64,000 nt of DNA from contig QWPW01000001.1 in the NCBI GenBank assembly GCA_003671025.1, forward strand, positions 124,001-188,000. The letters run 5' to 3'. Origin of the DNA: Planctomycetota bacterium (lineage in GTDB: Bacteria; Planctomycetota; Phycisphaerae; Phycisphaerales; SM1A02). The position numbers and the translations under genes are program-made. This document shows positions 42,479-49,053 of the stretch, one piece after another. The notes under the pieces were generated by a model. The model searched no databases and had not been told where the DNA came from. It worked only from the letters and a program-made list of their open reading frames with translations. The number at the start of each line of letters is the position of its first letter. Within the stretch, counting starts at the first letter, position 1.

Positions 42479-43261
42479 ATGTCCGTGCTCAAGCCTTCAT
42501 CTCCGCGTGCACAATCGGCGCAAGGCAACGTCTTCGACCTCGGCGATTTGCGTCGCGATGCCGAAGCGGTGCTGCGAAATGCTCGCGCCGAAGCAGTGCG
42601 CATCTTGGATGAAGCGCGCAAGGGTGGTGATGCCGCGCGCGCGACAGGGCGACTCGAAGGAATCGAACAGGGGCGCGCAGAAGGGCTCGCGCGCGGGCTA
42701 GAAGAGGGCCGCACAACTGGCGCGAACGATGGTCGTACTGCTGCGACGGCGTTGCATTGCCAATCGTTGGCGGCGATCGAAGAGAGTTTCTCCACTGCGT
42801 TCTTGCACTGGATTGCGCTGCGCGACGAACACATGCGCGAAGCAGAGCGTGAGCTCGCGGGCGTTGCAGTTGCCATCGCGGAACGCATTGTCGGTGAGAA
42901 AATCGCCCACGATCCTCGCATTGTGACGCGTGAAGTTGCGGCGGCAGTCGCGTTGTTTTCGCGCGCCACGCGCGTATCGATTGAGATCGCACCTGAAGAC
43001 GAAGCGATCGTGAGCGAGTCAATGTCTGTGCTGCGCGCACAGTTGCCCGCCGGCGCCGATGTTGAGTTGATCGCGCGCGAAGGCATTGCACGAGGTGGCT
43101 GCGTCATTCGCTCGAGCGAGGGCACGGTTGATGCACGGATTGAGATGCAGTTTCGGCGCATGCGCGACGGAATCACCGGCGTGATGCTCGTTGATGATGA
43201 GGCCGCGCAGACGGATGATTCGCGCAACCCTCGCGCCGACTCGAGCGAGGATCCTTCGTGA
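42479..43261 (+). CDS. fliH: Flagellar export apparatus protein FliH
   Basis: Regulator of the FliI ATPase in the flagellar secretion system, 260 residues. It shows the Gly-rich helix typical of FliH (GRLEGIEQGRAEGLARGLEE, GxxxG repeats) and the C-terminal domain (AVAIAERIVGEKIAHDPRIV, GIARGGCVIRSSEGTVDARI). The TGA stop overlaps the GTG of fliI. The tail after residue 235 is acidic and variable. Confidence 0.9.
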   Translation: MSVLKPSSPRAQSAQGNVFDLGDLRRDAEAVLRNARAEAVRILDEARKGGDAARATGRLEGIEQGRAEGLARGLEEGRTTGANDGRTAATALHCQSLAAIEESFSTAFLHWIALRDEHMREAERELAGVAVAIAERIVGEKIAHDPRIVTREVAAAVALFSRATRVSIEIAPEDEAIVSESMSVLRAQLPAGADVELIAREGIARGGCVIRSSEGTVDARIEMQFRRMRDGITGVMLVDDEAAQTDDSRNPRADSSEDPS

Positions 43262-44712
43262 AACTCTCATCAATCACCGCGGCGGTGCGCTCAATCGAAC
43301 CACGCGAAATCGCGGGCACGGTGCGCGCAGTCAAAGGTTTGGTGCTTTCGGTAGAGCAACTTCCGCTGCCTGTGGGATCGCTGGTGCGCGTGCTTGTTCC
43401 GCATCGCATGGACGCGCCGCGCGGTGAAGTGGTTGGCTTTGACGGTTCACGCGCGCTCGTGATGTTGCTCACCGAAGCTGAGGGAATCTCCAGCGGTGTG
43501 CGTGTCATCGGTGAGCAGCCCTATGCGACCGTTGGTGTCAGCGAGCAATGGCTCGGTCGCGTTGTTGATGCACTTGGCCGACCCATCGACGGCAAGGGGC
43601 GCATCGCACCCGGATCACCGCAACCGATTTGGCCCGCGCGCACCAGTCCGCTCACGCGTGGTGTAGTGCGCGAGATCCTGCCCACCGGCGTGCGCGCGAT
43701 TGACTCGATGCTCACGATTGGCAAAGGTCAGCGCATGGGAATCTTCGCCGGTCCTGGTGTGGGCAAGAGCACGTTGCTTGGATCGATCGCACGCGGCACG
43801 AGCGCGCATGTCAACGTCATCGGTCTCGTTGGTGAGCGTGGTCGCGAAGTACCGGAGTTTTTGCATCACGTGCTCGGTGAAGAAGGACTGAAGCGCTCCG
43901 TCGTCGTCGTTGCGACTGGTGATGAGAGTCCGCTCATGCGCGTGCGCGCCGCGACCGTGGCGTGCAGCGTCGCGGAATATTTTCGCGATGGCGGACTCGA
44001 TGTGATGTTGATGATTGACTCGATCACGCGCTTTGCACAAGCGCAGCGACAGATCGGTCTTTCAGCGGGAGAAGCGCCCGCAACCAAGGGATTCACGCCC
44101 AGTGTGTTTGCATTGTTGCCGCGATTGCTTGAGCGCGCGGGTTCGATCGAAGGAAGCGGATCGATCACCGGCTTCTACACGGTGCTTGTGGAAGGCGACG
44201 ACATGACCGAACCGATTGCCGATGCCGCGAAGGGAATTCTTGACGGGCACATCGTGCTCTCGCGTCGACTCGCGGAGCGCACGCATTACCCCGCGATTGA
44301 TGTGCTCGCGTCGATCTCGCGCGTTGCCGATCAAGTGTCGCATTACCCCGCGATTGATGTGCTCGCGTCGATCTCGCGCGTTGCCGATCAAGTGTCGGAC
44401 AAGAATCACGCGCAGGCGCGTCGTCACATGTCGCGCATGTTGGCGGCGTATCGCGAGGCGGAAGAGCTCATTCAAATCGGCGCGTACGCCAAGGGTTCGA
44501 ATCCCGATGTGGACGCGGCGATCGCGCTGAAGCCTTCAATTGAAGCGTTTTTGCGCCAAGGCTCCGACGAGCGATGCGAGTTGCCGCGCACATTGCGCGC
44601 ACTCATGGACATCTCGACCACTGCAGAAAACCTTGGGCGTCGCACGTCACCATCGACGCCTGCAACTGCGCCAACGATGACCGCTCAAAGCGCGTCCTCA
44701 CCGCGAAAGTAA
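43258..44712 (+). CDS. fliI: Flagellum-specific ATP synthase FliI with 19-residue duplication
   Basis: ATPase of the flagellar export gate, F1-beta like. Walker A GIFAGPGVGKSTLL, Walker B VMLMIDSITRFAQAQRQIG, the LVGERGREV loop and PSVFALLPRLLERAG are intact. After residue 340, HYPAIDVLASISRVADQVS occurs twice in direct succession; the normal family has it once. The duplication is in frame, and the C-terminal helical domain follows normally (HMSRMLAAYREAEELIQIGA). The insertion sits in a core helix near the active site, so loss of function would be expected if the duplication is real. Confidence 0.95.
   Translation: MKLSSITAAVRSIEPREIAGTVRAVKGLVLSVEQLPLPVGSLVRVLVPHRMDAPRGEVVGFDGSRALVMLLTEAEGISSGVRVIGEQPYATVGVSEQWLGRVVDALGRPIDGKGRIAPGSPQPIWPARTSPLTRGVVREILPTGVRAIDSMLTIGKGQRMGIFAGPGVGKSTLLGSIARGTSAHVNVIGLVGERGREVPEFLHHVLGEEGLKRSVVVVATGDESPLMRVRAATVACSVAEYFRDGGLDVMLMIDSITRFAQAQRQIGLSAGEAPATKGFTPSVFALLPRLLERAGSIEGSGSITGFYTVLVEGDDMTEPIADAAKGILDGHIVLSRRLAERTHYPAIDVLASISRVADQVSHYPAIDVLASISRVADQVSDKNHAQARRHMSRMLAAYREAEELIQIGAYAKGSNPDVDAAIALKPSIEAFLRQGSDERCELPRTLRALMDISTTAENLGRRTSPSTPATAPTMTAQSASSPRK
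44284..44397. repeat. Exact 57-bp tandem duplication inside fliI
   Basis: 44284-44340 and 44341-44397 are identical. The unit is 19 codons. Confidence 0.96.
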
Positions 44713-47886: not shown

Positions 47887-48471
47887 ATGAGCACGATTGA
47901 CGCACTCGCTGGAGCCGGCCCGATTCAACCTGCGGGAAATCGATTCAATGACCTCTCGAGCGAAGAGTTCATCAAGATCATCTTCACCGAGCTTTCCAAT
48001 CAGGATCCCTTCAAGCCGAATGATTCATCGGCGCTTCTGGAACAGCTCAATTCCATCCGGTCAATCGAGAGCGATATGCAGCTGTCCAAGGACCTGCAGG
48101 GCATCGTGTTCCAGAATCAACTGGCGACCGCGGGCAACTTGATTGGCAAGCGCGTCGCGGGCATGACCGCGGACAATGATCGTGTTGGTGGCGTGGTCAA
48201 GAGTGTCGCTCGCAGCGGCGACGAGATCGCGCTCATCCTTGACAACGGTTGGATCCTCCCTATCGATAATGTCGAATTCATCGATCAAAACCCGACTCCT
48301 ACCCCTCCGGTGATTCCCTCGCCTGGCGCGGGCGCTGGCGCGGGGACTCCTACACCGCCGCCGACCCAATCGAGCGTGGTGGCAAATTGGGGGCAGGGTG
48401 GGCCATCGGATCTCAACGGCGACGGCGCTGTTGATGCGCAGGATCTGGCCAAGTTGCTTAGTGGTGGTTGA
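47887..48471 (+). CDS. flgD: Flagellar hook capping protein FlgD with dockerin-like tail
   Basis: Hook-assembly scaffold. The N-domain LSSEEFIKIIFTELSNQDPF and the export/assembly region NSSALLEQLNSIRSIE-like are present, followed by ATAGNLIGKRV and a beta part. From about residue 140 a Pro/Gly/Thr linker leads to DLNGDGAVDAQDLAKLLSGG, a calcium-binding dockerin/EF-hand-like loop. This motif is frequent at the C-termini of secreted planctomycete proteins, but I know of no FlgD that carries it. CAGGAG precedes the ATG. Confidence 0.92.
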   Translation: MSTIDALAGAGPIQPAGNRFNDLSSEEFIKIIFTELSNQDPFKPNDSSALLEQLNSIRSIESDMQLSKDLQGIVFQNQLATAGNLIGKRVAGMTADNDRVGGVVKSVARSGDEIALILDNGWILPIDNVEFIDQNPTPTPPVIPSPGAGAGAGTPTPPPTQSSVVANWGQGGPSDLNGDGAVDAQDLAKLLSGG

Positions 48472-48558: not shown

Positions 48559-49053
48559 ATGACAATCGACCCGCGCCAACTTCTCCGACGACTCGAGCCT
48601 GCAGTGCGGCCCACGGGGACCGGTTCTGCGCGCGGCCGAGTGTCGGCGGCCGACGGCGGATTCACTGAACTGCTCTCACTCGCGCGTGACGGCGCGATCG
48701 AGAGTGCGCGTGAACCCGAGATGGCCGATGGCGCGACGCTTGAACCCGCGACGATGGCGCAAGTGGCGCGCGCGTTGGATCTCGCGCAAGGACGTGGTGC
48801 GCGTCGCGCAGTCATCGTCGCCGAAGGGCGCACTTTCATCGCTGATGTTTCATCGCGTCGCCTAGAGCGCTTGGAAACTCGTGATGACTTCGTCTTTGAA
48901 GAAGTCGATGCCGCCATCGCAATTCGCGGCGAAACAGCAACATTCGCGCAACGCCCATTGGGGCCACGCGCACTTCCCCCGCGCGAAATCGCGGAGCAAT
49001 TCGAATCACTTTCTCTCGACCAGACGCCACGCGCGCAACGCGCTAGCGCCTGA
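48559..49053 (+). CDS. Flagellar operon protein (TIGR02530-like)
   Basis: A 164-residue protein between flgD and flgE, where a small flagellar operon protein is commonly found in Gram-positive and other bacteria. The pattern matches: GGFTELL near residue 34, an LEPATMAQVARALDLAQGRG helix, the strand ARRAVIVAEGRTFIADV and the ending FVFEEVDAAIAI. Function is not established for the family. Low-complexity tail to the C-terminus. Confidence 0.75.
   Translation: MTIDPRQLLRRLEPAVRPTGTGSARGRVSAADGGFTELLSLARDGAIESAREPEMADGATLEPATMAQVARALDLAQGRGARRAVIVAEGRTFIADVSSRRLERLETRDDFVFEEVDAAIAIRGETATFAQRPLGPRALPPREIAEQFESLSLDQTPRAQRASA

Follow-up and report, generated by a model that had tools for sequence, protein, structure and literature searches.

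The window, i.e., the whole 64 kb stretch of planctomycete DNA that was analysed, holds a hook gene cluster in which flgD is preceded by a FliK-type ORF (PF02120) and followed, after a 164-aa ORF without family assignment, by a FlgE-type ORF. The flgD product passes the Pfam cut-off for the FlgD N-terminal domain (PF03963, 35.2 bits vs. a cut-off of 27), and its matches to NCBIfam equivalog models lie below the models' own cut-offs (best 61.2 vs. 129). The 164-aa ORF between flgD and flgE (window positions 48559–49053) has no Pfam match and draws one unrelated weak model in NCBIfam; its start, MTIDPRQLLRRLEPAVRP, turns up again 3' of flgD in many relatives. With the FlgD of Salmonella (structure 7bhq) the protein has in common the N-terminal FlgD domain, the fliK and flgE neighbours, and an architecture of one long helix and a small barrel. 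This structure was the best named FlgD both by sequence (E 0.018) and by fold (rank 18, E 0.072), both of them weak matches, and Foldseek with the predicted model returned zero matches at E ≤ 0.001. The core is, however, short in the planctomycete protein and leaves no room for the fibronectin-like half of Salmonella FlgD; its C-terminus consists instead of a linker and a calcium-type hand.

The protein ends in VVANWGQGGPSDLNGDGAVDAQDLAKLLSGG, as translated from the flgD ORF. In this tail a Pro/Gly linker leads into VVANWG and then into one canonical F-hand, DLNGDGAVDAQDL, the position behind a Pro/Gly linker being that noted in the first-pass annotation of this DNA. A loose F-hand pattern run over all six frames of the window gave exactly one match, which lies 20 residues before the end of FlgD (Table 1). 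Structure prediction, proposed in the same annotation, yielded an ordered hand behind a disordered linker: in the AlphaFold model (a single chain, alignment of 38 sequences, pTM 0.44) the barrel reaches a pLDDT of about 95, most of residues 148–170 fall below 50, and the hand has block means of 78 and 87 with a helix at residues 184–192.

Table 1 Features of flgD and its product, with positions in the window.
Feature	Position	Strand	Basis
flgD, whole gene with stop codon	47887–48471	+	194 aa; PF03963 match; FliK-type and FlgE-type ORFs adjoining
N-terminal stretch with type III export-like features	47890–47982	+	comparison with Salmonella FlgD signals
Folded FlgD core: long helix (aa 44–83), small barrel (aa 89–133)	48016–48285	+	AlphaFold, pLDDT 85–96
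Pro/Gly/Thr-rich linker (aa 134–163)	48286–48375	+	sequence; low pLDDT; pN/pS 0.58
VVANWG (aa 164–169), counterpart of the end of dockerin helix 1	48376–48393	+	aligned with dockerin LLxxWG
F-hand calcium loop DLNGDGAVDAQD (aa 175–186)	48409–48444	+	sole hand-pattern match of the window; ligands invariant
Closing helix of the hand (aa 184–192), without the usual Trp	48436–48462	+	predicted helix, block pLDDT 87

Judged from its sequence, the FlgD tail is half a dockerin, i.e., a single F-hand tail, and not a full dockerin. With type I dockerins (PF00404) it shares the canonical F-hand loop, in which all positions of the calcium-ligand consensus are present (D1, N3, D5, G6 and D12), and it aligns with the second half of the dockerins encoded in the same genome. 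A profile built from the FlgD tails of six relatives, with the window's own tail left out, matches the genome's two-hand dockerins from the end of the first hand, over the inter-hand linker, through the second hand (best domain L002, 34.3 bits; the window's FlgD, 28.6 bits), so that the FlgD tail matches a dockerin cut inside helix 1. It differs in carrying one calcium loop in place of the two tandem F-hands of a type I dockerin, in lacking the closing Trp, in its sub-cut-off Dockerin_1 score (15.5 bits vs. 22.9, E 0.034 in the genome search), and in its host protein, FlgD, which has no signal-peptide-like start. A complete dockerin on FlgD was rejected because of the single hand and the low score. 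The fusion of FlgD to a dockerin/EF-hand-like motif described in the first-pass annotation therefore stands as regards a calcium-type motif on a hook cap protein, which is found in relatives too, and has to be reduced from a dockerin to half of one.

That such motifs are common on exported proteins, as the same annotation had stated, is borne out by this genome. It contains 114 Dockerin_1 stretches at E ≤ 1, of which 40 are individually over the cut-off (counted from the listing); at E ≤ 1 the search was also positive in 9 of 14 named control genomes, in 2 of them over the cut-off. The 80 loci read from the genome, which take in nearly all of the places listed, comprise 85 ORFs with the hand pattern, and the dockerin ORFs among them mostly carry two tandem hands (DxNxDGxVxxxDLxxLLxxWG) near the C-terminus. 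A Trp stands within nine residues of the loop in 127 of the 136 loops of these 85 ORFs but is absent in the window's FlgD, and the closing Trp is missing from all seven hand-bearing FlgD tails of the genus. Signal peptides were scored with a rough rule, under which several of the 12 failing hand ORFs resemble leaders by eye; 47 of the 59 5'-closed hand ORFs passed it, compared with 17 of 48 window ORFs, and FlgD did not. A looser rule, passed by 54 of 57 testable hand ORFs and also by 31 of 48 window ORFs, was dropped as too permissive. Because the rule is rough, we confine the term leaderless to FlgD and to one further hand protein of the genome (L039, discussed below).

At its N-terminus, FlgD shows export-like features by eye, namely small non-polar residues near positions 2–7 and an FxxxI motif at 28–32 (FIKII). 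These putative motifs lie somewhat nearer to the start than those of Salmonella FlgD, whose export signals, 2SIAV5 and 36FLTLL40, are N-terminal (PMC8983047, in part). Given the N-terminal position of the Salmonella signals and the similar features here, the hand is unlikely to serve in export recognition, which had been suggested as one of its roles.

The hand on FlgD is a genuine, lineage-specific addition that has been kept in part of the genus. A survey of FlgD C-termini, also proposed at the outset, covered the 75 FlgD genes detected in 181 family genomes, all of which were read. Thirteen carry the hand and 62 do not, three of the latter being incomplete genes that could still have held one (G154 is cut in the core, the tail of G182 runs off its contig, and G022 contains a run of N). 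In the window's genus, where 16 genomes were searched, the hand is present in 7 of 13 FlgD-bearing members (G000, G001, G002, G006, G010, G011 and G012). A frameshift or assembly error at the end of flgD, considered in the first-pass annotation, is excluded, as separate records of six other species have the same in-frame end; absence of the hand from all relatives, which the same annotation would have taken as a refutation, is likewise disproved by these six species of the genus. Six genus members have no hand: in five of them FlgD terminates behind a linker (e.g., TPPPTTP or GSGNP), in the sixth (G004) it is nearly tail-less, and no remnant of a hand was visible in any frame of the 150 bases 3' of the stop codons.

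The remaining hand-bearing FlgDs of the family belong to two other genera, g7 (2 of 2) and g14 (4 of 4), and have the hand differently placed: it lies near the core, its Trp is retained (as LLLGQW or LLGQW), and the g14 proteins continue beyond the hand into a long acidic tail. On a tree of the FlgD core, which rests on few columns and has many open forks, these six FlgDs form one supported group separate from the window's genus. The hand needs three changes on this tree, at least two of them forced by starred branches, and a single gain with two later losses could account for the three. Outside the family, no hand was seen in the 38 FlgDs read (18 from the order and 20 others, the latter chosen in favour of long frames among 198 matching genomes), nor in three further FlgDs of the order. 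In some FlgDs from outside the family (L068, L072, L073, L315, L326, L328 and L329), a second copy of the small barrel domain seems by eye to be present at the C-terminus.

In a separate set of 80 named loci, a real hand was present in 12, while three loci gave no start and one gene was cut; a hand-pattern match in L239 was rejected as an acidic repeat. According to their record titles, the named hand-bearing relatives come from lakes, ponds and the sea, and they include the Lake Zurich bin plancto44 (L177), a name that occurs in PMC6461901 (in part). Records titled Candidatus Kuenenia stuttgartiensis or Limnohabitans sp. (L175, L176 and L180) hold the FlgD of this planctomycete genus, and their titles look mislabelled.

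Within the genus, the hand is under purifying selection. Among the seven hand-bearing sequences, which are partly non-independent as G002, G006 and G012 are very close, synonymous sites are near-saturated in every part of FlgD (pS 0.62–0.73). The pN/pS ratio is 0.27 in the hand (17 columns, pS 0.71) and 0.30 in the six VVANWG columns, lying between 0.15 in the core and 0.58 in the linker, where the alignment is uncertain. The five consensus residues of the loop are unchanged in all seven sequences, and so are the W and G of VVANWG.

FlgD tails vary across the family, most being Gly/Pro-rich or acidic, and the hand is one of the forms they take. Tails of at least 15 residues occur in 49 of the 75 FlgDs; Lys and Arg are nearly absent from them (mean 0.9%, vs. 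6–7% in the cores), and 23 of the 49 are acidic, with at least 25% Asp plus Glu. Other Phycisphaerales FlgDs (L239, L246, L248, L251 and the g58 genomes) frequently show Asp-rich repeats or acidic ends with almost no Lys or Arg.

Our preferred reading, to which we assign a probability of roughly 0.4, is that a half-dockerin from the genome's own dockerin stock folds in response to calcium once it has been exported by the type III route, and stabilises the hook cap. Half of a type I dockerin, comprising the end of helix 1, the inter-hand linker and the second hand, would have become attached to a short FlgD through a disordered linker. The tail would thread the flagellar type III channel unfolded, with the hand empty in the low-calcium cytosol, and outside the cell calcium would occupy the loop and cause the hand to fold. 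In the cap, presumably a ring built from FlgD subunits, several of the tethered hands would come to lie close together, and those of neighbouring subunits could pair like the two hands of one dockerin. Paired hands could in turn hold or stabilise the cap during hook growth. Calcium-driven folding after export is the simplest role that fits the conserved ligands, and calcium-dependent capping, an early suggestion for this protein, is a possible role.

Several observations favour this reading. The ligands are invariant in seven of seven sequences at a pS of 0.71 and a pN/pS of 0.27, the six-relative tail profile aligns to dockerins with 34.3 bits, the hand occurs in two separate groups of the family with at least two changes on the tree, and the AlphaFold model orders the hand beyond a disordered linker. 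Salmonella FlgD forms a pentameric cap and is unstructured during export (PMC8595650, in part), which points in the same direction. We also count the 23 of 49 acidic tails in its favour, as these would likewise suit a calcium-binding surface. Against it, 6 of 13 FlgDs in the genus and 62 of 75 across the family lack the hand, so that the cap evidently works in its absence, and we count the sub-cut-off score of the lone hand against the reading as well. A wider version, in which the cap as a whole is calcium-responsive and the half-dockerin, unfolded for export, afterwards meets external calcium and locks the ring by pairing between subunits or docks to another hand protein, appears rather unlikely.

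The main rival is a constrained passenger: a mobile dockerin piece could have landed at the end of flgD and have no role there, its sequence being kept since a misfolding or sticky tail would harm export. We consider this a real, if tentative, possibility. Dockerins are abundant in the genome, the spread of the hand is patchy in the genus (7 of 13) and the family (13 of 75), and the tails of relatives are very variable, five of the six hand-less genus members simply ending after the linker. A roleless piece is harder to reconcile with a pN/pS of 0.27 and invariant ligands at near-saturated synonymous sites, and with the separate presence of the hand in two groups.

Docking to other proteins is less likely on present evidence, whether to a cohesin or to another hand protein. 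The genome does encode two cohesin domains that exceed the Pfam cut-off, located in ORFs 2233 and 530 residues long (in the control, the search was positive in 2 of 14 named genomes and over the cut-off in 1), and the hand might bind one of them, tying the hook cap or shed caps to complexes at the cell surface. By eye, the two ORFs resemble the anchor and the adaptor in the planctosome that has been put forward for Nemodlikiaceae (PMC6461901, in part), likewise Phycisphaerae from fresh water that have cohesins, dockerins and flagella; the planctosome model differs in being about secreted peptidases, and FlgD is unmentioned in the parts of that paper considered. The search for cohesin-like proteins, another of the checks suggested at first, gave no co-occurrence support for attachment through a cohesin. 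Among the 13 FlgD-bearing genomes of the genus, five have both hand and cohesin, two the hand only, five a cohesin only and one neither, although the genomes are drafts in which a single absence of either is weak. A hand without a detected Pfam cohesin was found in G002, G010 and G021, and a cohesin without the hand in G008, G009, G013, G014 and G015. Only half of a dockerin is present on FlgD, moreover, and the hook cap gets discarded, which makes it a poor anchor. We regard cohesin docking as quite improbable.

Least probable of all, in our view, is a pairing of the FlgD hand with the hands of a 295-aa protein (L039, on the minus strand, and L079), which has three WG-hand units and EF-hands and is likewise apparently without a signal peptide. 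Of all matches to the window's FlgD tail within the genome, the closest (75% over 32 aa) lies in this protein; like the tail, it has WG ahead of the loop and lacks a Trp behind it, and it occurs in 13 of 16 genus genomes. It does so, however, whether the FlgD hand is present or not: it was found in the hand-less G004, G008, G009, G013 and G014 and was not found in the hand-bearing G010. Its gene adjoins an rlmE-like gene (by eye), outside the flagellar cluster, and the tails of relatives score best on an ordinary dockerin (L002, 34.3 vs. 31.4 bits), which also leaves the 295-aa protein unsupported as the source of those tails. Related proteins (L039 and L079–L091) are found genus-wide; they measure about 250–400 residues, carry EF-hands besides one to five WG-hand units, and end in ILSARA or similar.

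No published description of a fusion between FlgD and a half-dockerin was found among the titles and abstract openings listed from the open-licence literature. FlgD with a half-dockerin tail appears to be a previously undescribed form of a known protein; evidence of calcium binding or of a phenotype would raise its interest, which is moderate at present. If the preferred reading of calcium-driven folding is true, a calcium module otherwise found on Sec-type proteins has been grafted onto a substrate of flagellar type III export and kept by selection. The protein would then offer a natural test of two questions: whether calcium drives the folding of a type III substrate once it has been exported, and whether dockerin halves act outside cohesin binding. 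Even as a mere passenger, the tail would still exemplify clearly the shuffling of a module into a core flagellar gene.

Elsewhere in the window, a FliI-like ORF (43258–44712) contains a perfect 57-base tandem duplication (44282–44397, two copies, 100% match), which repeats 19 residues in frame and could be either genuine or an artefact of assembly.
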